Of a DNA stretch of 64,000 bases, positions 34,446 through 64,000 are shown one piece after another. The stretch spans positions 62,001 through 126,000 of the forward strand of contig CAMBIX010000001.1 in the NCBI GenBank assembly GCA_945867815.1. Reading direction: 5' to 3'. The DNA is from an uncultured Veillonellaceae bacterium (GTDB lineage: Bacteria; Bacillota; Negativicutes; Veillonellales; Veillonellaceae). Each line of letters starts with the position of its first letter. Positions within the stretch are counted from its first letter, which is position 1. The notes beneath the pieces were generated by a model. It had not been told where the DNA came from. It ran no database searches and saw only the letters and a list, made by a program, of their open reading frames with translations. A program made the position numbers and the translations under genes.

Positions 34446-34675
34446 CGTCTGTAAATTTTCTAAGCCGTGGTGTGTTTATATTGAGTTTCTTTAATTATAA
34501 CACACTGAAACGACAGCTACTATAGGTACAGCACAGCCGTACTTATTATTTAGTACGAGTAATGAAAAATCGGATGCTCATCACGGGCATCCCTATTTTT
34601 TTGCCATCAAAGTACTTAACGATAGCTGTTCTGTCCTATTACTCCTAAAAGCTAAATTTTCAGGAGGTGTCCTCG
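34446..34675. promoter_or_regulatory. Divergent intergenic region, probable left edge of transposon
   Basis: 230 bases between two divergent genes. It holds a CGTACT/AGTACG stem-loop near 34531-34555, a GGATGC/GCATCC hairpin followed by T-rich sequence near 34573-34600, and AGGAGG at about 34662 for the next gene. The composition changes from A+T-rich cargo to G+C-rich transposon genes here. No terminal repeat could be paired with the right side. Confidence 0.4.
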
Positions 34676-35068
34676 ATGACGGACGAACAGAAACAACAGA
34701 TCATTGCCCTGCGCCGGGATGGGGCGGGGTATGGCAGGATTGCGGCGCGGCTCCAGATTTCCATCAACACGGTGAAGTCGTTCTGCCGACGGCACAGTCT
34801 TGCTGCCAGTACAGCGGGGGCAGTCTGTGAGCAGTGTGGAAAGCCGATTGAACAGAATCCGGGACGGAAGCGGAAAAGGTTCTGCTGCGATGTCTGCCGG
34901 AATAAGTGGTGGAATGCACATCTGGAGCTGGTGAAGCGGAAAGCAGTCTACACCTATACCTGTCCGGCTTGCGGGAAGAAATTCACTGTCTACGGCAACA
35001 GCCATCGGAAGTTCTGCTCCCATGCCTGCTATATTGCATACCGGTTCGGAGGTGTCCGCCATGGATAA
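34676..35068 (+). CDS. HTH and zinc-finger protein of the recombinase module
   Basis: About 130 residues. An N-terminal sigma-like HTH (GYGRIAARLQISINTVKSFC) is followed by two zinc-binding motifs: CEQCGKPI...FCCDVCRNKWW and CPACGKKF...FCSHACY. Such proteins often precede large serine recombinases in Firmicute transposons and may regulate or assist them. The same HTH type is in the phage gene at 4822. Confidence 0.8.
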   Translation: MTDEQKQQIIALRRDGAGYGRIAARLQISINTVKSFCRRHSLAASTAGAVCEQCGKPIEQNPGRKRKRFCCDVCRNKWWNAHLELVKRKAVYTYTCPACGKKFTVYGNSHRKFCSHACYIAYRFGGVRHG

Positions 35069-35222
35069 GAGGTCGTTTCAAAATGAAACAGCCTTCCAGG
35101 TGGTGATGCATCTGGCAAGGCGGATGCTGGCCGAAAAGCTCATCACCGGGAAGGAGTACCGGGACTTCGTGCAGGAGATGATCCGCCGCTATCCGCCGTT
35201 TTCCGGGGACTTATACACTTGA
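35061..35222 (+). CDS. Small SHOCT-like protein of the recombinase module
   Basis: 53 residues, MDKRSFQNETAFQVVMHLAR and RMLAEKLITGKEYRDFVQEM. The second part resembles a short SHOCT-type helix pair. It overlaps the zinc protein gene and has GGAGGTGTCCGCC upstream. Small proteins like this are recurrent companions of serine recombinases; function unknown. Confidence 0.65.
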   Translation: MDKRSFQNETAFQVVMHLARRMLAEKLITGKEYRDFVQEMIRRYPPFSGDLYT

Positions 35223-35253
35223 TAATTGTATCAAACAGAGTGATATATAGTGT
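35218..35253 (+). promoter_or_regulatory. Promoter copy 3 of the repeated promoter element
   Basis: TTGATA (35219-35224) and AGAGTGATATATAGTGT (35237-35253). The second block is identical over 17 bases to the amidoligase promoter at 8725. It drives the first recombinase. Confidence 0.6.
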
Positions 35254-35270
35254 CGAAAGGAGCTGATTCT

Positions 35271-36950
35271 ATGCGGACTATCCGTAAGATTGAACGACGC
35301 ATACCAAATTTGAAGCAGCGAAAGAAAGTCGCAGCCTATGCCCGCGTATCCATGGAATCGGAGCGGATGCACCATTCCCTTTCGGCGCAGGTCAGTTATT
35401 ACAGCAGCCTCATCCAGAAGAACCCGGACTGGGAATACGCCGGGGTCTATGCCGACTATGGCATCTCTGGGACGGGGATGAAGAAGAGGCAGGAATTCCT
35501 GCGGATGCTGGAAGATGCCGAAGCCGGGAAGATAGACATCATCCTGACCAAGTCCATCCAGCGCTTCGCACGCAACACCGTAGACCTTCTGCGTACCGTC
35601 CGGCATTTGAAAGAGCTAGGCGTCGAAGTCTGGTTTGAAAAAGAGAATATCCATACCATGAGCGGGGACGGCGAGCTGATGATGACCATCCTGGCCTCCT
35701 TCGCCCAGGAAGAGAGCCGTTCCATCAGCGAAAATGTCAGATGGAGAGTGAAGAAACGATTTGAGCAGGGGAATCCTAACGGGCGGTTCCGTGTTTACGG
35801 GTATCGTTGGGAAGGGGATACCCTGGTGATAGTCCCCAAGGAAGCGGCTGTTGTCAGACGCATCTTCCAGAATTTCCTGGATGGCAAGTCACGTCTTGAA
35901 ACCGAACGGGAATTTGCTGCCGAAGGCATCACGACCCGGAATGGCCGCCGCTGGATGGATTCCAACATCAGGGTTGTCCTGACCAATGTTACCTATACCG
36001 GCAATATGCTTTTCCAGAAGGAATATGTGACGGATCCAATCCTCAAGAAGCGGAAGAAGAACCGGGGAGAACTTCCTAGGTATTATGTTGAAAATACGCA
36101 TGAGCCTATCATCGACAAGGAAACCTTTGATTACGTGCAGCAGGAGATGGCGCGGCGAAAGGAACTGGGGGCGCTGGCCAATAAGTCCTTGAATACGACC
36201 TGCTTCACGGGGAAAATCAAATGCGGCATCTGCGGTCGGAGTTATATGCACAATCGCCGCACAGACCGGGGCTTTGAAGAATTCTGGGATTGTGGCTCCC
36301 ATAAGCTGAAAGGCCGGAATTGCGGCGCAAAAGGAAGTATCCCGCATGCAGTCCTTGTAAAGGAGAGTACAGAAGTCCTAGGCCTGGATGATTTCGATGA
36401 GCAGGCCTTCCTTGACCAGGTCGAAAAGATAGTAGTGCCAGAATACCACGTGATGGTTTTCTGTATGAAAAACGGACAGAAGCTTATCCGGCACTGGGTA
36501 TCAACGGCGAAAAAGGATTGCTGGACCGATGAGTATAAGGATCGCCAGAGGGCATGGATGAAAAACTACATGGCCAATGGCAAGGGAACACGGTTCTCCG
36601 CCTTTACGACACGTGTCCGGTGCGCCTTGTGCGGATCCTCTTTCCGGCGGTGCAAAACGAAGCATGACAGGCCTGTTTATTGGCGATGCAGCAAAGGCGG
36701 CAAATGTGAATCGGTCAGCATCCGGGAAGATGACCTGAAGCGTGTGGCCGCAGAGGCCATGGGGTTAGAGAACTTTGATGAGGATAGATTCCGGGAGAAA
36801 GTGGAATCTATCGAAGCCGGAAAGCCAGACTGCCTGACTGTCCATTTCAAAAGTGGGAGAACAAAAGAGATTTCTTATACGCCTACGCCGTCCAAGCGAC
36901 GTTCCAAGGCACGGAGAAAGGAGAGCAGAGAAAAGTGGCAAAGACAGTAA
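35271..36950 (+). CDS. Large serine recombinase 1
   Basis: About 559 residues. The resolvase-type catalytic domain has KKVAAYARVSMES (nucleophile Ser in the RVS motif) and TKSIQRFARNTVDLL. The recombinase domain includes GYRWEGDTLVIV, and a zinc ribbon has CGICGRSY...CGSHKLKGRNC. There is a second Cys set (CALCGSSF) in an unusual C-terminal extension. The family moves transposons without target duplication. ATG 35271 follows CGAAAGGAGCTGATTCT. Its stop overlaps recombinase 2. Confidence 0.92.
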   Translation: MRTIRKIERRIPNLKQRKKVAAYARVSMESERMHHSLSAQVSYYSSLIQKNPDWEYAGVYADYGISGTGMKKRQEFLRMLEDAEAGKIDIILTKSIQRFARNTVDLLRTVRHLKELGVEVWFEKENIHTMSGDGELMMTILASFAQEESRSISENVRWRVKKRFEQGNPNGRFRVYGYRWEGDTLVIVPKEAAVVRRIFQNFLDGKSRLETEREFAAEGITTRNGRRWMDSNIRVVLTNVTYTGNMLFQKEYVTDPILKKRKKNRGELPRYYVENTHEPIIDKETFDYVQQEMARRKELGALANKSLNTTCFTGKIKCGICGRSYMHNRRTDRGFEEFWDCGSHKLKGRNCGAKGSIPHAVLVKESTEVLGLDDFDEQAFLDQVEKIVVPEYHVMVFCMKNGQKLIRHWVSTAKKDCWTDEYKDRQRAWMKNYMANGKGTRFSAFTTRVRCALCGSSFRRCKTKHDRPVYWRCSKGGKCESVSIREDDLKRVAAEAMGLENFDEDRFREKVESIEAGKPDCLTVHFKSGRTKEISYTPTPSKRRSKARRKESREKWQRQ

Positions 36951-38503
36951 GGGCCATCCCGGCCACCATCAGCCGTTATACGGCGGCTCCGATTAACAGC
37001 CGGAAGAAGCGGAGAGTAGCGGGCTATGCCAGGGTTTCCACGGACCATGATGACCAGATCAGCAGCTATGAAGCACAGGTCGATTATTATACGAACTATA
37101 TCAGGGAACGGGATGACTGGGAATTTGTCGGCATCTACACCGATGAAGGCATCTCGGCTACCAACACGCGTCACCGCGATGGCTTCAAGCGGATGGTCAG
37201 GGATGCCATGGATGGGAAAATCGACCTCATCGTCACAAAATCAGTCAGCCGCTTCGCCAGAAATACCGTAGACAGCCTGACAACGGTACGCAAGCTCAAG
37301 GACAAGGGCATCGAGATATATTTCGAGAAGGAAAATATCTGGACGCTCGATGCCAAGGGCGAACTCCTCATCACCATCATGAGTTCCCTGGCGCAGGAAG
37401 AAAGCAGGAGCATCTCGGAAAACGTCACCTGGGGCCATCGGAAGCGATTCGCTGACGGGAAGGTGTGTGTGCCGTTCGGCCATTTCCTTGGCTATGACCG
37501 GGGACCGGACGGGAATCTGGTCGTCAACCGGGAACAGGCCAAGACGGTGAAACTGATTTACCGCTTGTTCCTGGACGGGTATACCTTCCACTCCATTGCC
37601 AGGGAGCTGACTTCCAGAGGGCTGGAAACTCCGGCAAGAAAGAAACGCTGGTATCCGGGGACGGTAGAGAGCATCCTGACAAATGAGAAATACAAGGGCG
37701 ATGCCCTGCTGCAGAAGCGGTTCACCGTCAACTTCCTGACCAAAGAAACGAAAGCGAATGAAGGGGAAGTGCCGCAGTACTATGTGGAAAATAACCACGA
37801 AGCCATCATCAGCCCGCAGGTCTTCGACTGGGTACAGGAAGAAATCAAGCGGCGGCGTGAAGGCAGGGGACGTTACAGCGGCGTATCCATCTTCTCCAGC
37901 AAAATCAAGTGCGGCCAGTGCGGAGGCTGGTACGGGGCCAAGGTCTGGCATTCGACCGACAAGTACCGCAGAACCATCTACCGATGCAACGATAAGTTCA
38001 AGAGCCATTGCAAGACACCACATCTGACAGAGGATGATATCAAGGAAGCCTTCGTCCGGGCCGTCAATCAGCTCATCGAAAACAAAGCGGACGTACTTGA
38101 CAGCATCACACTGCTGAAGGAACGGCTCACTGACACAGAAGACTTGGAAGAGGAGCGGGACAGGATAAGCACAGATTTGAACCTGCTGGCCGACAAGATA
38201 CAGCAGCTCATAGCCGAGAACGCCAGGGTCGCGCAGAACCAGGATGATTATGACCGGAACTACAACGAACTGGTCAGTCGGTATGAAGCAGCGAAGACGC
38301 AGTACGACAAGACCTGTGAAGCCATCCAGTATCGCAAGGCCCGGAGCCGTCAGATGGACAGCTTCATCAAGGAGCTTAGGAATCAGGATCTCATTAAGGA
38401 GTTCGATGCCCGGCTGTGGGGCAGCCTGGTGGATTTCATCACAGTGTACAGCAAAGACGATATCCGGATGACCTTCAAGGACGGGACGGAAATCAGAGCA
38501 TAA
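36935..38503 (+). CDS. Large serine recombinase 2
   Basis: 522 residues: RRVAGYARVSTDHDDQ (catalytic Ser), TKSVSRFARNTVDSLTTV, a recombinase domain (GYDRGPDGNLVVNREQAK), zinc ribbon CGQCGGWYGAK...YRCNDKF, and a coiled-coil C-terminus. It resembles TnpX-type transposases. GTG 36935 follows GAAAGGAGAGCAGAGAAAA and overlaps recombinase 1, so the two are probably co-produced and may act as a heteromer. Confidence 0.92.
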   Translation: MAKTVRAIPATISRYTAAPINSRKKRRVAGYARVSTDHDDQISSYEAQVDYYTNYIRERDDWEFVGIYTDEGISATNTRHRDGFKRMVRDAMDGKIDLIVTKSVSRFARNTVDSLTTVRKLKDKGIEIYFEKENIWTLDAKGELLITIMSSLAQEESRSISENVTWGHRKRFADGKVCVPFGHFLGYDRGPDGNLVVNREQAKTVKLIYRLFLDGYTFHSIARELTSRGLETPARKKRWYPGTVESILTNEKYKGDALLQKRFTVNFLTKETKANEGEVPQYYVENNHEAIISPQVFDWVQEEIKRRREGRGRYSGVSIFSSKIKCGQCGGWYGAKVWHSTDKYRRTIYRCNDKFKSHCKTPHLTEDDIKEAFVRAVNQLIENKADVLDSITLLKERLTDTEDLEEERDRISTDLNLLADKIQQLIAENARVAQNQDDYDRNYNELVSRYEAAKTQYDKTCEAIQYRKARSRQMDSFIKELRNQDLIKEFDARLWGSLVDFITVYSKDDIRMTFKDGTEIRA

Positions 38504-38704: not shown

Positions 38705-39559
38705 TTAAAATACTAAATTATCAAAAATTCGTTTTGCCGCCTCCGCAATCATAGCGTCGTCAGATTTTGCATTTTTTTCCGTGCGGCGCGACATTATCGC
38801 CATGACAATGGGTTTGCGATTGGGCGGATAAATCACGGCAATATCATTCCGCGCCCCATAATCGCCTGAACCGCTCTTGTCGATAACTTTCCAACCTTGC
38901 GGAGTTTCTGCCTTGATAAGCGTGTCGGTTATGGAATTGTCGCTCATCCAATCAATCAGCAGTTTTTTCTTGTCGTCGCTCAAAATATCGCCGAATATAT
39001 AGACTTGCAAATTTTTTACCATCTGTCTCGGCGTGCTAGTATCACGATTATCTTTTGGATTGAAAAGATTAAGTTCAGGTTCATTTCGCGCAGGTTTGGT
39101 AGTTTTGTCGCCAATATTTTTAAGTGCCACCTTGAAATTTTCCACGCCGCCGATCTCCTGCAAAATTAAATTTGCCGCCGTGTTGTCACTCCACCTGAGC
39201 GATGCCGAACAAATTTCCGCCAGCGTCATGCCATCAGCAACATGGTCTTTGGTGATTGGCGCGTAGGACAAAATATCTTCCGCCGAAAACTTACGAATTT
39301 CATTCAAATCGGAGGTATTTTTTTGTCTTAGCAATTCTGCAGCCGTAAAAACTTTGATTGTCGAGCAGTAGGAAAAACGCGTATCAGGTTTGTAGCAAAT
39401 TTTTTTTCCATTCTCCATGTCAACGGCGTAAACACCAATCACGGCGTTATATTTATTTTCCAGATCAGCAAGATTTAATTTCTGCCGCGCTTGACAATCC
39501 TGAAGGCAGAAAACCATCAAGCCACAGATTATCAAAAACAAAAAACAAAATTTCTTCAT
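38705..39559 (-). CDS. aci1: ACI-1-type class A beta-lactamase
   Basis: A 284-residue serine beta-lactamase. It has a Sec signal (KKFCFLFLIICGLMVFCL), the S-x-x-K motif CSTIKVF, the SDN loop RWSDNTAAN, the omega-loop Glu in RNEPELN and the K-[ST]-G motif DKSGSGDYG. Length and sequence fit ACI-1, first described in Acidaminococcus fermentans and known to lie on transposons inside tailed prophages of Negativicutes. It hydrolyses penicillins and some cephalosporins. AGGAGG sits just upstream of the ATG, inside a short upstream frame whose stop overlaps it. Confidence 0.93.
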   Translation of the reverse strand: MKKFCFLFLIICGLMVFCLQDCQARQKLNLADLENKYNAVIGVYAVDMENGKKICYKPDTRFSYCSTIKVFTAAELLRQKNTSDLNEIRKFSAEDILSYAPITKDHVADGMTLAEICSASLRWSDNTAANLILQEIGGVENFKVALKNIGDKTTKPARNEPELNLFNPKDNRDTSTPRQMVKNLQVYIFGDILSDDKKKLLIDWMSDNSITDTLIKAETPQGWKVIDKSGSGDYGARNDIAVIYPPNRKPIVMAIMSRRTEKNAKSDDAMIAEAAKRIFDNLVF

Positions 39560-54663: not shown

Positions 54664-55170
54664 ATGAAGTTGAGTTTAAGATATGATAACACTTTCCAGG
54701 AAGTTGAAATAGAACTACGTGAAATGGAAGGCTGGATGAACATTTTAGTAGAGTCGGATGAATCAATAGAAGACAGAGAAAAGCGAGTTCAGGAAGCGGT
54801 GAATGTACTGCTGAATCGGCCGGACTACAACAACTGGCATACAATGGCCCGTCACCGCGGTATCCCTCCAAAGCCAAGCCGGAAGGATGACCAGGATGCA
54901 GATGATACGGATGGGTTGGATTGTCTGGAAGATACAAATTACACACGGCAGATGGAAGAACGGGAATCATATGACGCCGCTTGTAGTGATGTGAAAAGCG
55001 CACTAGCAAAGAAACCCAAGTGGGCTGATGCTGTTATTGCGGTTTACATCAATGGAGAGTCCATCCGGGATTATGCTAAAAGAATCGGCGTCAATGAAAA
55101 TAGTATCACACAGTTTTTGAAGCGAGCGAGGAAAAAATTGCAGAAAATTTTTGCGGACCGTCAGATTTGA
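54664..55170 (+). CDS. Sigma-70 region-4-like phage regulator
   Basis: 168 residues with an acidic middle (DDQDADDTDGLD) and a C-terminal sigma region-4-like HTH (SIRDYAKRIGVNENSITQFL). ATG 54664 follows GAGGAGGCAAATC; the open frame from 54625 is longer but without a site. Such proteins regulate transcription in mobile elements. First gene of this module. Confidence 0.72.
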   Translation: MKLSLRYDNTFQEVEIELREMEGWMNILVESDESIEDREKRVQEAVNVLLNRPDYNNWHTMARHRGIPPKPSRKDDQDADDTDGLDCLEDTNYTRQMEERESYDAACSDVKSALAKKPKWADAVIAVYINGESIRDYAKRIGVNENSITQFLKRARKKLQKIFADRQI

Positions 55171-55230
55171 CGATTTGCCGTGGCTAGTAAGTAGGGGGCA
55201 ACTCCCAATTACATCAGAGGAGGTCATCAA

Positions 55231-56029
55231 AATGACTACAATGGAAAACTTTATTTACAACAGAATGAACGTACGCACGGCTATCGTAGACGGCGAGCCT
55301 TGGTTCGTGGCTGCAGACGTGTGCCGGATTCTGGATATCGGCAATCCTAGTGATGCGCTGTCGAGACTGGATGACGATGAAAAAAGTACCCTCGTTTTAA
55401 TCGAGGGTATTCCCGGAAACCCAGAAAAACGTGTTGTCAATGAATCAGGACTCTATACGCTGATTCTCGGTAGCCGGAAACCGGGAGCCAGAGCTTTCAA
55501 ACGCTGGGCGACGCATGAAGTTATTCCGGCTATCCGCAGAACGGGTATATATGCTACGGAGACCATCCTCGACAATCCGGACCTTGCGATTGCAGCCTTT
55601 ACCAGACTCAAAGAAGAACGGGAACGGCGTGTATCTGTGGAACTTCTGGCTACCGCACAACAGCAGCAGATTGCCGAACTCCGGCCTAAGGCAAGTTACT
55701 ATGACCGAGTACTCCAGTGCCCGGATCTGGTCAAGATTTCCACTATTGCAAAAGACTATGGATGGTCTGCTCAACGTATGAACAATTGGCTCCATGAACA
55801 CGGTATCCAGTACAAGCAGGGCAATATCTGGCTCCTTTATCAGGAATATGCGCCGATGGGGTATACCAGCACGAAAACGTACAGTGTTCCCGATGGTCGC
55901 GGAATCCGGCACAATCGTATCAATACGTACTGGACACAGAAGGGGCGGCTGTTTATCTATCAGCTGATGACGGCTGAAGGTAACTATCCGCTCATCGAAC
56001 GGGAGTGTGGAGACTGTGGACAAGTTTAA
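55231..56029 (+). CDS. BRO-N/KilAC antirepressor
   Basis: 265 residues. The BRO-N domain (~5-105) reads RTAIVDGEPWFVAADVCRIL, ESGLYTLILGSRKPGARAF and the RWATHEVIPAIRRTG signature. The KilAC domain (~150-250) reads KISTIAKDYGWSAQRMNNWL and RLFIYQLM. Phage antirepressors of this type counter the lysogenic repressor. ATG 55231 follows AGAGGAGGTCATCAAA. Confidence 0.93.
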
Positions 56030-56435: not shown

Positions 56436-58641
56436 TTTTTACGATTTACACTGCTGACTGCACCGGTAACGAACGCAATGCTGTGTATCCCCATAAGGCA
56501 GTTATCACGAATGGCGCAGAACTGAAAGGTGCAGTCGCCTTCGATCATGTATGCGCGGCTTTTAAAGAAAATTACCGCAGTCGGGAGAATTTCATTGCCT
56601 CAGATGTGGTGGTAATGGATTGTGACAACAGTCATTCAGAAAATCCTGCGGACTGGGTAACGGAGGAACGGTTCCTTGCTATGGTACCGAATACGGCTGT
56701 TGCCATTGTGCCTTCACGGAACAATATGAAGCCAAGGACGGTAAGTGCGCTCGTCCCAGGTTCCATGTGTATTTTCCCGTTTCTGAAGTTGAGGATGAAG
56801 CCATGTATGCAGAAATGAAGCGTGTCACCCAGCACCGATTCCCATTTTTCGATGGGGCTGCGCTGGATGCTGCCCGGTTCATTTACGGATGTGCGGTAGA
56901 AAATGTATTGTGGCAAGAAGGTTCTCAGTCTATTTTAGCAGTTATTGAAAGTTTTCCCAAATCATCCGGCAGTATCCCGCAGGGGAAACGTAACAGTACC
57001 ATGAGCCGATTTGCTGGCCGGGTCATTAAACGGTATGGGGCAACAGAAAAAGCCTATCAGATTTTCTTTGAGGAAGCAGAGAAATGCGATCCACCGCTTG
57101 AAGATGCAGAGCTGAATAGAATCTGGCAGAGCGCCGTCCGGTTCGGAGAAAAGGTAGCCAAGCAGGAAGGCTATATCAGCCCGGATCAGTACAATAATGA
57201 ATTTGGAACAGAGGAAAGCCTGAAACCCGGAGACTATTCGGATATCGGTCAGGCCAAGGTACTGTACAGGGAGTATGGTAATGAACTGCGCTATACGGAG
57301 GAAGCGGACTTTATCCGCTACAACGGTGTGCACTGGATGGAGTCGCGCCAGGAAGCGGTCGGGGCGGCGGAAGAATTTCTTGACCTGCAACTGGCTGATG
57401 CGAACGACCAGTTGAATAAGGCGGTGAGGGAACTGGCACGTTCGGGGCTGTCGGAAGATATCATCCGTAAAGGCGGCCGGGCATTGGAAAAGATGATTAA
57501 TCCAGGGCAGCATAAAGATTATCTGGCATACCTTTCCGCAGAAGTGTACCGCACTTTCGTTATGAAACGCCGGGATATACGCTATATACTGTCTGCTTTG
57601 CAAGCATTGAAGCCGATGATTCTGCTTCCCATCCAGCGCCTTGATGCGGATGAATTTCTGCTTAATACACCGTCATTTACTTATGATTTGCGAAAGGGAA
57701 TCGACGGGCGTCGGGAGCACCGGGCAGAGGATTATATTACGAAATGTACAACTGTCGATCCGGGTGATGAAGGTAAAAACATATGGGAGAAAGCGCTCAA
57801 TGAATTCTTTATCAACGATTGGGAACTCATCGGGTACGCGCAGGAAATCAGCGGGCTTATGGCTATTGGCAAGGTCTACGTAGAAGCTTTGGTCATTGCC
57901 TATGGCGATGGCCGAAACGGAAAATCCACCTACTGGAATTCCATCGCGCGTGTGTTGGGAAGCTACTGTGGCGGTATCTCAGCGGATGCGCTGACGGCAA
58001 ACTGTAAAAGAAACATCCGGCCAGAGATGGCCGAACTTAAAGGAAAGCGCATGGTGATTGCCGCTGAAATGGAAGAAGGCGTCAGGCTTTCGACTTCCGT
58101 CCTGAAGCAGATCTGCTCTACCGATGAGGTGGGTGGCGAAAAGAAGTACAAGGCGCCGTTCAAGTTCGTACCGACGCATACCATTGTCCTTTATACCAAC
58201 CATCTGCCAAGGGTGGGTGCGACCGATGAAGGGACATGGCGTCGGCTGATAGTCATCCCATTCAAGGCGCAGTTCGAAGGACAGGGCGAAATCAAGAACT
58301 ACACGGATTACTTGGTGAAGAACGCCGGCCCGGCCATCCTGCAATGGATCATAGAGGGAGCGAAGAAGGTCATCGACAAAGACTACCAGCTTGAACCGCC
58401 CAAGTGCGTTCAGGAAGCGATTGAGAAATACAGGGGACAGAATGACTGGCTCCATCATTTCCTGGATGATTGCTGTGATCTGGGCCCGGCATTTAACGAG
58501 AAGTCAGGTAACCTTTATACGGCATACCGGGCGTACTGCCAGCAGATGAATGAGTATATCCGGAGTACGGCAGATTTCTATTCGGCACTGGAGAATGCAG
58601 GCTTCGAGCGTAGGCGCAATAAGGATACACCAAGACCATAG
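56432..58641 (+). pseudogene. D5-type primase-helicase, frameshifted and 3'-truncated
   Basis: The same gene type as at the window start. The first frame (MIFTIYTADCTGNERN...) runs to about 56728. The correct continuation (AKDGKCARPRFHVYFPVSEV) is one frame away, consistent with loss of a single base near 56729-56731. The helicase core then reads normally (GDGRNGKS, nt ~57907-57930) up to FERRRNK, where it is joined to foreign sequence and stops as DTPRP. The other copy continues for ~16 more residues. A sequencing error cannot be excluded for the frameshift; the 3' junction is real recombination. Confidence 0.85.
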
Positions 58642-59054
58642 AAAAAATCCGTGCCGCTATCAAAGCAGCTTATGATGAAGGTCAGGGCAAGCTCAAAGGC
58701 AATGACCGTGCAGTCCCTGCCCTCGAAGCTATCAAAATTCCGCTCCATGACGGCGATCTGGAACGTCCTGGTGATGACGCTTATAAAGACAGTTTCTTTA
58801 TTAATGCCAACTCTACCACTAAGCCGGGCATTGTCGATGCTGACTGCCAGCATATCCTGGAACGCTCTGAAGTCTACTCTGGCGTCTATGGCCGTGCATC
58901 CATCAATTTCTATGCTTTCAACAGCAATGGCAACAAAGGTATTGCCTGCGGCCTCAACAACCTGCAGAAGATTCGTGACGGCGAACCCCTCGGTAGCAAA
59001 CCTCGTGCTGAAGATGACTTCGCTACGGCTGACGATGACGATTTTCTGGCATAA
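58623..59054 (+). pseudogene. DUF2815 (phage ssDNA-binding-like), 5'-truncated
   Basis: The frame following TAA at 58620 reads TKTIEKIRAAIKAAYDEG, then SFFINANSTTKPGIVDAD, LERSEVYSGVYGRASINFYA and GIACGLNNLQKIRDGEPLG. This is the DUF2815 family, single-stranded-DNA-binding-like proteins encoded just before phage DNA polymerase. About the first 45 residues and the start are missing at the junction with the primase. The remaining core is intact. Confidence 0.85.
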
Positions 59055-59120: not shown

Positions 59121-61109
59121 ATGAAAAACATAAGTATCGATATTGAGACGTTCAGTGACGTCAACTTGACCAAGTGCGGCGTATACAAATATGCTGAATC
59201 CCCAGCCTTTGAGATTCTTCTCTTTGGTTACGCCGTGGATGGCGGCGACGTACAGGTCGTTGATTTGGCCCAGGGAGAATCCATTCCGGATGACATCCTG
59301 GATGCCGTAACCGATGAATCCGTCACCAAGTGGGCCTTCAATGCCAGCTTTGAACGAATCTGCCTGTCGAGGCACTTGAATGATCTGGGGATGAGCCTTG
59401 ATCCTTTCCATGACCATCATCCGCTTTCCCAGGAATGCGCCCGGTTCCTCAACCCGGCGGGTTGGAAATGCTCCATGATCTGGTCGGCATACATGGGGCT
59501 GCCTCTTTCCCTGAAAGACGCCGGTGCCGTTTTGAATCTGGATAATCAGAAGATGAAGGAAGGCAAGGACTTGATTCGCTATTTTTGCACTCATTGCAAG
59601 GAAACTAAGTCGAATGGCGGCAGGTCGAGGAACTTTCCCCGTCACGCACCAGATAAATGGAAGTTGTTCAAGTCCTACAACAAACGGGATGTGGAAGTGG
59701 AAGTGGCTATTCAGAAACGGCTGAAGAATTATCCAGTCCCGGAACAGGTGTGGGACGAATACCATCTGGACCAGGAAATTAACGACCGGGGTATTGCCAT
59801 CGACCGGACGCTGGTCAGTCAGGCCGTGGCTATGGATGCCCGATGCCGGGAATCATTGATGGGCGAGTTAAAGAAAAAGACGGGCTTAGAAAATCCGAAT
59901 TCCGTCATCCAGATGATTGGCTGGCTGGAACAGCATGGCATGGAGACAGATTCTCTGGGGAAGAAACAGGTGCAGGAACTGCTGAAGACTGCGGAAGAAC
60001 CGCTGCGCAGTGTGCTGCTGCTCCGGCAGAAGCTGGCCAAGTCATCTGTCAAGAAATACCAGGCTATGGAAATGACGGCCTGTGATGACAATCGGGCCAG
60101 AGGCATGTTCCAGTTTTATGGTGCCAACCGGACCGGGAGATTTGCCGGACGTCACATCCAGTTGCAGAACCTGCCACAGAATCATCTGCCCGATTTAGCT
60201 GAGGCCAGGGAATTGGTGCGACAGGGGAATTATGAAGCTTTGGAACTCCTGTACGACTCTGTCCCCGATGTCCTGTCCCAGCTCATCCGCACCGCCTTTG
60301 TGCCTCGGCAGGGCATGAAGTTCGTGGTATCGGATTTCTCCGCCATCGAGGCACGGGTCATTTCGTGGCTTGCTGGAGAAAACTGGAAATCAGAAGCCTT
60401 TGCGGCCGGACAGGATATCTATTGTACGACAGCCAGTCAGATGTTTGGCGTACCCGTGGTGAAGCATGGGATAAATGGCCACCTGAGGCAGAAAGGTAAA
60501 ATCGCAGAACTGGCTTGTGGTTATGGCGGGTCTGTCGGTGCGCTGAAGGCGATGGGTGCACTGGACATGGGGCTTACAGAAGATGAACTGTATCCTTTGG
60601 TGCAATCCTGGCGCTCTGCCAATCCGCATATCGTTGATTTCTGGTGGCAGGTGGATGCCGCCGTAAAGACGACCGTCAAAAAGCATGTCCCTATGCGGGC
60701 AGGATGCATCCGCTTCCTTTATCAGAGCGGCATGTTGTTCATCCAGCTTTCCAGCGGACGGCGGCTTTCCTATGTGAAGCCACGGATGGGTGAGAACCGC
60801 TTCGGCGGTGAATCAGTAACCTATGAAGCTATCGGCGCCACCAGGAAATGGGAACGGCTTGAGAGCTATGGCCCGAAGTTTGTGGAAAATATTGTTCAGG
60901 GTATCAGCCGGGACATCCTTTGCTATGCTATGCAGACGTTACGGTGTTGTGCTATCGTCGGCCACGTTCATGATGAACTGATTATCGAGTGTGACAAGAA
61001 TGTCAGCGTCGATGCTATCTGCGAACAGATGGGACGGACGCCACCGTGGGCTGAAGGACTTGTTCTGCGGGCCGATGGGTACGAATGTGAATTTTATCAG
61101 AAAGATTAA
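59121..61109 (+). CDS. Phage family A DNA polymerase
   Basis: About 662 residues. The 3'-5' exonuclease has ISIDIETFSDV (D-x-E), KWAFNASFERI and NKRDVEVEVA. The polymerase has VVSDFSAIEARVISWL (motif A, Asp), a motif B region (KGKIAELACGYGGSVGALKA) and VGHVHDELIIEC (motif C, HDE). No 5' nuclease domain, as usual for phage enzymes of this kind. ATG 59121 follows ACGAGGTGAAACGT. Normally the upstream partner is DUF2815, which is here truncated. Confidence 0.94.
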   Translation: MKNISIDIETFSDVNLTKCGVYKYAESPAFEILLFGYAVDGGDVQVVDLAQGESIPDDILDAVTDESVTKWAFNASFERICLSRHLNDLGMSLDPFHDHHPLSQECARFLNPAGWKCSMIWSAYMGLPLSLKDAGAVLNLDNQKMKEGKDLIRYFCTHCKETKSNGGRSRNFPRHAPDKWKLFKSYNKRDVEVEVAIQKRLKNYPVPEQVWDEYHLDQEINDRGIAIDRTLVSQAVAMDARCRESLMGELKKKTGLENPNSVIQMIGWLEQHGMETDSLGKKQVQELLKTAEEPLRSVLLLRQKLAKSSVKKYQAMEMTACDDNRARGMFQFYGANRTGRFAGRHIQLQNLPQNHLPDLAEARELVRQGNYEALELLYDSVPDVLSQLIRTAFVPRQGMKFVVSDFSAIEARVISWLAGENWKSEAFAAGQDIYCTTASQMFGVPVVKHGINGHLRQKGKIAELACGYGGSVGALKAMGALDMGLTEDELYPLVQSWRSANPHIVDFWWQVDAAVKTTVKKHVPMRAGCIRFLYQSGMLFIQLSSGRRLSYVKPRMGENRFGGESVTYEAIGATRKWERLESYGPKFVENIVQGISRDILCYAMQTLRCCAIVGHVHDELIIECDKNVSVDAICEQMGRTPPWAEGLVLRADGYECEFYQKD

Positions 61110-61122
61110 ACAGAAACGTCAG

Positions 61123-61162
61123 AAAACACCTCCTGTCGTGGCTAATAAGCAGGAGGTGTTTT
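61123..61162 (+). promoter_or_regulatory. Perfect 13-bp hairpin hiding the xis ribosome site
   Basis: AAAACACCTCCTG (61123-61135) and its exact complement CAGGAGGTGTTTT (61150-61162) with a 14-base loop. The right arm contains the Shine-Dalgarno AGGAGGTG for the ATG at 61165. On RNA read from the polymerase gene the site would be closed, so translation of excisionase should be low unless transcription starts inside the loop or the stem is opened. Confidence 0.8.
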
Positions 61163-61164
61163 CG

Positions 61165-61380
61165 ATGAAAAGCAATGATGAAATCCATACGGTTCCTTTT
61201 ACCCAGAGGTTTTCGCTGACACCGAAGGAAGCCAGTATCTACTTTCATATTGGAGAAAAGAAAATCAGAGCACTGGCTGCAGAACAACGTGGCGCATCTT
61301 TTGCCGTCTATAACGGCCGGCACTTGCTCATCATTCGAGAAGAATTTGAAAAGTTCCTTTGCCGAAGTTCCAGCATTTAA
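61165..61380 (+). CDS. xis: Excisionase (Tn916 Xis-like)
   Basis: 71 residues of a winged-HTH excisionase: FSLTPKEASIYFHIGEKKIR, then FAVYNGRHLLIIREEFEKFL. It bends DNA at the att site to favour excision by the downstream integrase. Standard xis-int order. Its ribosome site is in a hairpin. Confidence 0.88.
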   Translation: MKSNDEIHTVPFTQRFSLTPKEASIYFHIGEKKIRALAAEQRGASFAVYNGRHLLIIREEFEKFLCRSSSI

Positions 61381-61393
61381 TGCGCTATTATGA

Positions 61394-61431
61394 GTTGACT
61401 TATTAGCTCATCAGAGTGATGAATAGGATAG
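61394..61431 (+). promoter_or_regulatory. Putative integrase promoter, related to the repeated element
   Basis: TTGACT (61395-61400) followed by CAGAGTGATGAATAG; the AGAGTGAT block matches the elements at 7765, 8725 and 35237. It would drive int separately from xis. Confidence 0.45.
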
Positions 61432-61459
61432 AAAAAAAAAGAGAAAGGAGATTGAAATT

Positions 61460-62752
61460 ATGCCACGCCTACGAGGACCAATACGCAGAGATAAAAAACG
61501 ACGGGTTCTTCGGCCCGGCGAAACAATCCGTGCCGATGGCCGATATCAGTTTAAATATATGGTAGACGGAAAACCTAAATTCTTTTACAGCTGGAAACTG
61601 GAGCCTACTGATCCCTTGCCGGCAGGAAGAAAGCCTTGTAAATCATTGCGGGAAATGGAAGAAAGTCTGGAAGTCCGCTCAATTATTTGTCCAAACAGCG
61701 ATGATGATACCATGACTGTCATGGAACTGGTGCAGCGTTATTTATCTTTAAAGACCGGTGTGAAACCTAACACCCGAATTAACTATAATTTTGTCGTTAA
61801 TGCATTAATGAAAGACCCATTCTCGAAAAAGCCGATTGGCAAGGTAAAGATGTCTGATGCTAAATTATGGTTGGTAAAGATGCAGTCAGAAGGGAGAGGA
61901 TACAGTTCCATCCATAGCATTCGCGGCGTAGTACGTCCGGCGTTTCAGATGGCTGTGGATGACGAAATCCTGTGGAGAAATCCTTTTAACTTTGAAATGA
62001 GAGAAGTGCTGATTAATGACAGCGTAAAAAGGGAAGCTATTTCCCGCAAAGATATGCGAATTTTTCTGGACTTCCTGAAAAACGATCGGCACTTCAAAAA
62101 GTATTATGAAGCAGTATTTATCCTGTTTCATACGGGGTTACGCATTTCGGAACTCTGCGGACTGACGGTCGGGGATATTGATCTGGAAAAACGAACCATC
62201 AACGTAGATAAGCAGCTACAACGGGATACGAAGGGAAAGCGGTACATAATTTCCACGAAAACCAAAGCCGGAGCTAGACTGCTTCCAATGACAGATGACG
62301 TGTATGACTGTTTTACAGCTATCTTGAGGCGCAGGAAGCCTCCGAAAGTTGAACCAATCATTGATGGAATCGGCAACTTTCTTTTCTATGACGCCAACGG
62401 GAATCCGACTGTTGCCATGCATTGGGAACATTATTTCAACCATATGGTGAAAAAATATAATGACATATACAAATATCAGTTACCCAAAATTACACCTCAT
62501 GTCTGCCGGCATACGTACTGTACCAATATGGCTCTGTCTGGAGTCAGTGCTAAAACTCTCCAGTACCTGATGGGTCACAGCGATATATCCATCACCCTCA
62601 ATGTGTACACGCATATCAAATTCGATGATGCTCAGAAAGAAGTGGAGCTGGTCCAGGAACAGCAGCAAAAAGAAATGGAAAACGTTTGGAAAGAACTGGA
62701 ACAGGTAGGAGAAATACAGCCTAAAATCATTCCGTTCCGTAACAAGGCGTAA
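61460..62752 (+). CDS. int: Tyrosine integrase
   Basis: 430 residues. An arm-binding/AP2-like N-terminus (DGRYQFKYMVDGKPKFFYSW) and SAM-like core-binding domain (~95-190) precede the catalytic domain: HTGLRISELCGLTVGDID (first Arg), HVCRHTYCTNMA (H-x-x-R), YLMGHSDISITLNVYTHI (His and Tyr). All catalytic residues are present. Tn916/phage-type. It reads towards the repeat array at ~63.5 kb, as expected for an int-att arrangement. Confidence 0.95.
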   Translation: MPRLRGPIRRDKKRRVLRPGETIRADGRYQFKYMVDGKPKFFYSWKLEPTDPLPAGRKPCKSLREMEESLEVRSIICPNSDDDTMTVMELVQRYLSLKTGVKPNTRINYNFVVNALMKDPFSKKPIGKVKMSDAKLWLVKMQSEGRGYSSIHSIRGVVRPAFQMAVDDEILWRNPFNFEMREVLINDSVKREAISRKDMRIFLDFLKNDRHFKKYYEAVFILFHTGLRISELCGLTVGDIDLEKRTINVDKQLQRDTKGKRYIISTKTKAGARLLPMTDDVYDCFTAILRRRKPPKVEPIIDGIGNFLFYDANGNPTVAMHWEHYFNHMVKKYNDIYKYQLPKITPHVCRHTYCTNMALSGVSAKTLQYLMGHSDISITLNVYTHIKFDDAQKEVELVQEQQQKEMENVWKELEQVGEIQPKIIPFRNKA

Positions 62753-62764
62753 TCCATGAAACAT

Positions 62765-62803
62765 AAAAAGACTCACGATTATAACGATTGTGAGTCTTTT
62801 TTT
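62765..62803 (+). terminator. Terminator after int
   Basis: AAAAAGACTCAC (62765-62776) pairs with GTGAGTCTTTTT (62790-62801). Confidence 0.88.
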
Positions 62804-62906
62804 ATGCTCAATTTTCGATTTATCCTTGTGGTATAATGAAAACAATAAAAAACAGAAAGAGCGATAGAGGAATTTTATAGAATAGAAAGCTGGTGGCAAA
62901 ACTGAA

Positions 62907-63377
62907 ATGAAATTTGAAAGTATAAATAAAAGCAACCCAATTTATTATTCCAGATTTCAGTTCTGCGCCGATGGAGAGATTTATGAACGAGTTGTCTGTA
63001 ATATCTCTTATAAGGAACTGAGTTATTTGCGTTTTAAAATGGTATCGCGGCCAATATCCCTCACTGAAGTGACGTGGGAAGAAAAAGTTACTGAGAAGAT
63101 CGTTCATGTTTTGACGGCGGCGGAAATTGCGGAAATGAAGCCTTATATAAACGCCTGGGATTTTGAGCCTTATAGAAATCGGGAAATGGAAATGTTTAAC
63201 CCTGGATTTGTCGGGTACCTGGACGGAATACGCAGAGAATTTGAGGGGATTACCGATTCTTATCTGCCGTATATAAAACTTTCCATGGACTATTGCTATG
63301 AACCCATGTTGCCACCGGAAGCATTATACAGCTATATCATGGATAAGTATTTTCCTCAAGTATGTGGGAAGCAATGA
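62907..63377 (+). CDS. Unknown protein between int and att
   Basis: 156 residues (MKFESINKSNPIYYSRFQFC to YFPQVCGKQ), mixed alpha/beta, acidic; no family recognised. RFKMVSRPISLTEVTWEEKV and VLTAAEIAEMKPYINAWDFE may form a small domain. The composition is more A+T-rich than the replication genes, and its position between integrase and attachment site is a common place for cargo. A weak ribosome site makes the start uncertain. Confidence 0.55.
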   Translation: MKFESINKSNPIYYSRFQFCADGEIYERVVCNISYKELSYLRFKMVSRPISLTEVTWEEKVTEKIVHVLTAAEIAEMKPYINAWDFEPYRNREMEMFNPGFVGYLDGIRREFEGITDSYLPYIKLSMDYCYEPMLPPEALYSYIMDKYFPQVCGKQ

Positions 63378-63639: not shown

Positions 63640-64000
63640 TATGATAAAGATACTTTTTATTTGCCACTAGTTATTATGACTTATATTAATCCTGTTTTTG
63701 TTTATGGCTATGATTCTTTCTTTAAATAGTGTCAAGAAGTAGGGATTACAGGCTTAATTGTGCCAGATGTGCCTTACGAAGAATCAGAAGAGATGATACA
63801 AGCAGCTAAGCCCTATGGTGTAACTATTATTTCCTTAATTGCTCCTACGTCTAAGCAACGTATACAGATGATTGCCCAAGGGGCAGAAGGTTTTATTTAT
63901 TGTGTATCTTCTTTGGGCACAACAGGTGTACGTAAAGAATTAGGAGCAGATATTAAAGGTTTGGTGAGAGCTATAAAAGAAAAGGCGAACGTTCCTGTCG
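63640..64000 (+). pseudogene. trpA: trpA fragment with in-frame stop (continues beyond window)
   Basis: The frame reads LPLVIMTYINPVFVYGYDSF, a TAG at 63727-63729, then GLIVPDVPYEESEE and SSLGTTGVRKELG. These are the middle of tryptophan synthase alpha chain (PDVPxEE and the later phosphate-binding loop). The N-terminal ~100 residues are missing, and the frame is closed by the TAG, so the gene is dead here. A+T-rich codons differ from the phage. It is probably the flank into which the element integrated. Confidence 0.8.

Follow-up and report, generated by a model that had tools for sequence, protein, structure and literature searches.

A putative phage-specific promoter nested in a ribosome-site hairpin ahead of a Tn916-type excisionase gene

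Background

In an uncultured Veillonellaceae bacterium (contig CAMBIX010000001.1), a long perfect hairpin separates a phage DNA polymerase gene from a Tn916-type excisionase gene and holds the ribosome-binding site of the latter, which raises the question of what such a structure does at this position. Throughout, the window refers to the whole 64,000-nt stretch of DNA that was analysed. From sequence comparisons we infer that a phage-specific promoter is quite probably nested in the hairpin and belongs to a regulon with three sites per phage. Copies of the underlying two-block element are referred to below as site (or class) A ahead of the antirepressor gene, B ahead of the replication operon, and C in the hairpin behind the polymerase gene.

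The hairpin and its Shine-Dalgarno sequence

The initial annotation reported a 13-bp inverted repeat with the Shine-Dalgarno (SD) sequence in its 3′ arm, and was right apart from the length: the arms, GAAAACACCTCCTG (61122-61135) and CAGGAGGTGTTTTC (61150-61163), form 14 perfect pairs around a 14-nt loop, and the SD stands 7 nt from the xis ATG at 61165 (Table 1). The 64-kb window has two places with perfect repeats of at least 14 nt and loops of no more than 20 nt, vs. none in 20 dinucleotide-preserving shuffles, and the 101-nt fold has a z of -3.8, being matched in stability by one of 200 dinucleotide shuffles. None of the 4227 Rfam 15 models matched positions 60900-61600 at E up to 1, or eight relatives at the gathering score.

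Table 1. Coordinates of the features discussed in the text, in window positions
Feature	Position	Strand	Remarks
Sigma-region-4-like gene	54664..55170	+	phrog_11138 (unknown function); candidate recognition factor; just before the antirepressor gene
Site A, CGTCAGA-16-GGCTA-6-A	55159..55193	+	The window's other copy of the element, before the antirepressor gene; overlaps the last codons of the sigma-like gene
BRO-N/KilAC antirepressor gene	55232..56029	+	Downstream of site A
Phage family-A DNA polymerase gene	59121..61109	+	3′ end marks the hairpin position in relatives
Block 1 CGTCAGA, site C	61117..61123	+	Putative -35 of a phage-specific promoter
Hairpin	61122..61163	+	Arms as given in the text, loop 61136-61149; register conserved in relatives
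Block 2 GGCTA, site C	61140..61144	+	Putative -10; 16 nt downstream of block 1 and within the loop
Shine-Dalgarno AGGAGGT	61151..61157	+	Within the 3′ arm; first A is the putative transcription start, 7th base after GGCTA
Excisionase gene xis, Tn916-type	61165..61380	+	Pfam PF09035, E 1.8e-14, 54.1 bits vs. cut-off 22.9
Integrase gene int, Tn916-type	61460..62752	+	Pfam PF00589, PF02920

Computed folding supports the earlier suggestion that RNA reading through from the polymerase gene hides the SD: in the window, opening it would cost 16.8 kcal/mol in the read-through RNA vs. 2.1 kcal/mol in an RNA beginning at the putative start. For 38 distinct class C copies, the computed median cost is 13.2 kcal/mol in read-through RNA vs. 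1.95 kcal/mol (maximum 5.89) from the corresponding start, and the SD in read-through RNA is unpaired with a median probability of 0.0008 (maximum 0.51). The initial annotation had also considered the case of transcription starting within the loop, in which the hairpin would never form; the putative start lies at the 3′ arm, close to that case.

The hairpin is a property of site C in particular. Pairing of the spacer with the start region reaches 95.2% of cells at class C vs. 58.0% when A/B copies are read in that register; slid registers give 38-59%. Most A/B sites have no SD hairpin; site A of the window lacks a strong one and would provide no masking switch (4.9 vs. 5.2 kcal/mol). The stem itself is kept in relatives. 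Covariation within it is slight, with two pairs changed on both sides and as many in 79 of 500 shuffles, since each arm is under constraints of another kind. Two phages, W06 and W08, add an outer stem pair with both sides changed (T-A).

The hairpin could also be the intrinsic terminator of the polymerase operon, the SD in its 3′ arm being a by-product of close packing. This explanation, which we regard as rather unlikely, is favored by the T-richness of the 8 nt 3′ of the stem (5 to 8 T in 42 of the 43 distinct class C copies, 4 in the other one) and by those class A copies that lie in terminator-like hairpins with T-runs. In the window, however, the T-run is short (TTTT, then CG), the stem lies only about 12 nt past the polymerase stop, and the SD falls exactly in the arm; moreover, a terminator leaves unexplained the fixed 16-nt spacing of the two blocks, their presence at two other operon starts and their concerted changes, all of which are described below. 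A terminator scan that considered loops of 3-8 nt did not list the window hairpin, whose loop has 14 nt. The functions of terminator and nested promoter are compatible and do not exclude each other.

Genes around the hairpin

According to the initial annotation, int would have its own promoter. A sigma-70 scan listed none in the xis-int gap, and its promoter-like matches in 60500-63000 were no more numerous than in shuffles (4 vs. 4.2). A model in which the hairpin acts on translation only and limits Xis, int having its own promoter and integration being favored as a result, would agree with the SD opening cost in read-through RNA (16.8 kcal/mol), but it has to contend with the empty xis-int gap, with the non-xis genes that lie behind the hairpin in other phages, and with the promoter-like element inside the hairpin, and we consider it improbable. 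Nothing points towards a bias to integration. With the read-through RNA shut and the promoter RNA open, the embedded promoter would supply xis and int jointly.

At 58600-59053, comparison with L047 by eye suggests that a DUF2815-type gene is 5′-truncated and joined behind the primase gene, its 3′ part being all that stands between primase and polymerase genes, so that the prophage region looks like a remnant devoid of its replication-operon start; the exact two-block pattern detected no replication-operon site in the bacterium's own genome. Both blocks and the stem of site C are nevertheless intact in the window, despite these remnant-like surroundings. Further downstream (63640-64000), the flank opens with codons resembling the beginning of a low-molecular-weight phosphatase gene (cf. 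L012, position 4866) and continues into a trpA-like fragment containing stops. This phosphatase gene may harbor the attachment site; only a distant phosphatase relative is found in the own genome.

The primase genes at 135-1901 and 56767-58641 are similar, and would represent the early modules of two related prophages within one window. A second polymerase gene is located just beyond the window (G000:C1:59881-60300), with a different downstream layout. The region 34640-38503 contains an HTH/zinc-finger gene and a pair of serine recombinase genes, like the replacements of xis/int in relatives, with no long hairpin at the start of the HTH/zinc-finger gene; an ORF adjoining the serine recombinases on the minus strand (38705-39559) resembles, by eye, a class A beta-lactamase.

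The hairpin accompanies the polymerase gene rather than xis

The hairpin is kept in close xis relatives (L007, L008, L012 and L013) and is absent from those with 57-63% identity (L009-L011); the latter carry other stable hairpins near xis. A pattern scan of IMG/VR revealed the same hairpin behind polymerase genes where the next gene codes for an HTH/zinc-finger protein, followed in those phages by a SHOCT-like gene and then by serine recombinases. Searches behind polymerase genes, together with a looser pattern, yielded 24 distinct copies with the polymerase gene upstream, all 24 of which have GGCTA in the loop; hairpin matches without the polymerase also lack GGCTA, the exception being L190, a contig that starts 49 nt upstream. 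In the enlarged set, a polymerase gene is found within 600 nt upstream of 42 of the 43 distinct class C copies. The gene after the hairpin is variable: it may be xis, an HTH/zinc-finger gene, a SHOCT_2 gene (PF20612, tested for one member) or a gene for another small protein, with recombinase or integrase genes coming next wherever the downstream region was read or annotated. The hairpin is thus not an excisionase mask, since unrelated genes follow it in other phages; with xis present without it in L009-L011 and non-xis genes present with it, we rejected an excisionase-specific device.

A leader peptide was considered and rejected. In L007, L008, L012 and L013, a short ORF begins just past the polymerase stop and ends by overlapping xis at ATGA, and its translation would melt the stem; it was dropped because the start codon is replaced by CAG in the window, where the frame runs into xis, and because the other class C copies lack the ORF. 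We also observed an intein-like insertion in the polymerase genes of L046 (2-1384) and L048 (4000-5691), which is longer in L048.

The alternation of modules behind the hairpin indicates that integration modules were exchanged exactly at this point. Is the conserved stretch, then, a mere linker that promotes such exchange by homologous recombination? Tn916-type xis/int and HTH/SHOCT plus serine recombinase modules do alternate exactly here, but the letters of the spacer vary while its length and pairing are kept, and the same blocks are present at site B, where no exchange is seen. We regard the linker as very improbable.

A two-block element with fixed geometry

In 230 loci plus the window (1.6 Mb in total), GTCAGA and GGCTA are separated by 16 nt in 39 distinct instances vs. 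12 in total at the 18 other spacings between 8 and 26 nt, which have 0-2 instances each except for 7 at 26 nt. Bases 6-8 past GGCTA read YAG in 37 of these 39 instances and TGG in two (by eye), with some of the loci having been fetched by a pattern that requires GAGGTG. With both gaps left free, a scan of IMG/VR returned 117 stretches; among the matches in the 80 loci listed, 50 of the 63 distinct ones counted have gaps of exactly 16 and 5 nt, and 13 have scattered spacings. These counts include several loci fetched with motif-like patterns, and sites from related phages are non-independent.

The whole genome to which the window belongs contains two exact copies of the element, both in the window, and no copy of the reversed pattern. 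The A/B form is found in 3 of 398 genomes of the phylum, this one included, vs. none for the reversed control. Two possible sister promoters were also noticed, mostly preceding antirepressor-type genes: one combines ATCCTCAAC with GGCTA-5-TAGAGG (6 distinct: L103, L108, L110, L113, L141 and L144), and the other combines CTTAA with a TTCAC-like second block at a gap of 16 only (4 distinct: L076, L087, L092 and L155).

Three classes of sites

With at most one mismatch allowed in block 1, we collected 118 distinct sites, of which 43 are class C, 61 precede phrog_7234, 11 follow the sigma-like gene, two are other and one is odd; these sets were partly chosen by polymerase or related patterns, and the class proportions are not a census. 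The phrog_7234 gene begins the replication operon, which continues with DUF2800/2815-type genes and the polymerase gene. The antirepressor gene was found downstream of 4 of the 11 sites that follow the sigma-like gene. All three classes are present at the same places in Ruminococcus phage NatCom_38182, Streptococcus phage Javan630 and Erysipelothrix phage phi1605; phage W05 has site A only, and the element is absent from its polymerase 3′ end.

In most rows, block 1 of class A overlaps the final codons (RQI) of the sigma-like gene, and coding could therefore explain part of its conservation there. Several class A sites sit in terminator-like hairpins with T-runs, such as TTGCCGAGGCTAC...GTAGCCTCGGCAAATTTTTT. 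At L318 (3893) and L335 (3837), the two-block element is enclosed by a clear terminator-like hairpin that has seven T in a row.

Replication-operon sites (46 non-redundant) have a T-rich run just upstream, and no other conserved block was found at their positions -70 to -25 (0.16 bits, 46 sites), which is the main argument for the element itself being the promoter. An operator or an antitermination (nut/put-like) site for a phage protein would likewise account for blocks that are conserved at several operon starts and vary together. With a T-run directly before the element and no other block upstream, however, there is little room for a separate promoter; in addition, the spacing resembles -35/-10 geometry, and a purine-rich start block follows at a fixed distance downstream. 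Taken together, these features make an operator or antitermination site unlikely, and we favor the promoter.

Concerted change of block 1 and a candidate recognition factor

Within a phage, block 1 is alike at sites A, B and C, reading CGTCAGA, CGTCCGA, TGTCCAA or CGTCCTT, with the exception of CATCAGA at site C in two phages. Thus, all sites have CGTCCGA in Javan422, TGTCCAA in NatCom_28274 and CGTCCTT in NatCom_3870, with GGCTA, the spacing and the start block remaining constant. In the six phages that possess the complete set of sites (W04 and W05, which have just site A, were excluded, and heptamers were entered by hand), block 1 differs on average by 0.22 letters within a phage vs. 2.07 between phages, and 1 of 20000 permutations was as tight. 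The simplest cause of such concerted change is a shared trans-acting reader.

That factor is probably the sigma-like protein encoded beside the antirepressor, as the co-occurrence of gene and element suggests. In 17 whole records, the pattern GTC-19-GGCTA-5-YAGRRG gave 18 matches, distributed over all 8 records with the sigma-like gene; it was found in none of the 9 polymerase-containing records without this gene, and the reversed-pattern control in none of the 17. Three of the 8 positive records yielded no match with the strict pattern and were recovered only with the looser one, and the 8 were drawn from 10 found, NatCom_28775 and NatCom_2329 being left out with scores almost equal to that of NatCom_3870. 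The product of phrog_11138 has weak similarity to phage sigma factors: PF08281 (region 4) matches the window protein with 26.5 bits vs. a cut-off of 25.7, while two relatives fall below the cut-off, and no Pfam region 2 match was obtained in three proteins at E up to 0.01. The structural model is confident only from about residue 98 onwards, the N-terminal part being not confident. In Foldseek searches with it, sigma region 4 matches rank first but are weak, the best being SigR region 4 at E 0.02, with none reaching E 0.001.

Proposed mode of action

In the arrangement that we propose, CGTCAGA would serve as the -35 and GGCTA, 16 bp downstream, as the -10, with RNA starting about 7 nt past GGCTA, on the A that opens AGGAGG. 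Of the two hairpin arms, the 5′ one would then lie within the 16-bp spacer and the 3′ one would constitute the start region. RNA reading through from the replication operon would contain both arms, with the ribosome site hidden by the hairpin; the same hairpin may also terminate read-through transcription, given the 4-8 T among the 8 nt that follow the stem. The RNA from the nested promoter would escape both masking and termination because it lacks the 5′ arm, and would allow translation of xis, then int. In this manner, the first gene of the integration module would be insulated from polymerase-gene read-through and, at the same time, would join a regulon that serves to start the antirepressor and replication operons as well.

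More tentatively, and with somewhat less confidence than doubt, these temperate-phage promoters may constitute a new class, recognized by a small phage protein that has a sigma region 4 and no evident region 2, and starting the antirepressor, replication and integration operons together. Some of its sites would lie in a hairpin that silences upstream RNA by ribosome-site masking or termination, acting as promoter and insulator in one, and co-evolution of block 1 with the protein may have given rise to several specificities.

Gut Firmicutes are the source of many of these phages, and some of the records contain resistance genes. A limited literature search gave no account of the timing of integration, excision and replication in these phages; the element offers a sequence handle on the regulon, from which follow three predicted starts in each phage, a switch involving two kinds of RNA, and a candidate factor. 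The matched block-1 sets form a natural series for how sigma region 4 shifts specificity.

Comparison with known systems

The xis and int protein families are shared with Tn916, but the Tn916-type xis starts of four genomes of the same family (L003-L006) have neither the hairpin nor the two-block element, and the same is true of the xis start in a Tn916 copy within a phage record (L043). Late promoters of phage SPO1, which are read by a phage-modified polymerase, have a similar-looking first block, CGTTAGA, but differ in the second block and in the spacing. The promoter family itself had no match in a limited search of the open-licence literature, whereas the logic of a nested promoter is already known from phage T4.

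In S. aureus prophages, the conserved untranslated stretch ahead of int is a promoter for the host sigma-H (PMC2869324). The likeness to our case would consist in an alternative sigma factor, here a candidate one, driving a prophage integration gene. The S. aureus factor belongs to the host, whereas the element described here occurs in almost no host genome (3 of 398) and is associated with a phage gene.

The closest parallel in logic is provided by T4. T4 genes e, soc, 49 and I-TevI have a late promoter within a ribosome-site hairpin, with a similar arrangement for mobE of Aeh1; a long upstream RNA hides the ribosome site in the hairpin, and a promoter at the 5′ arm yields a shorter RNA without it (PMC3014915, PMC2988022). 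As in those accounts, the SD would be masked in the upstream RNA and free in the RNA from the nested promoter, here by computation and with a putative start. The differences from T4 are that we are dealing with temperate Firmicutes phages and with CGTCAGA-16-GGCTA instead of TATAAATA, that the controlled gene opens an integration module, and that the element recurs at operon starts, with some of its copies in terminator-like hairpins.
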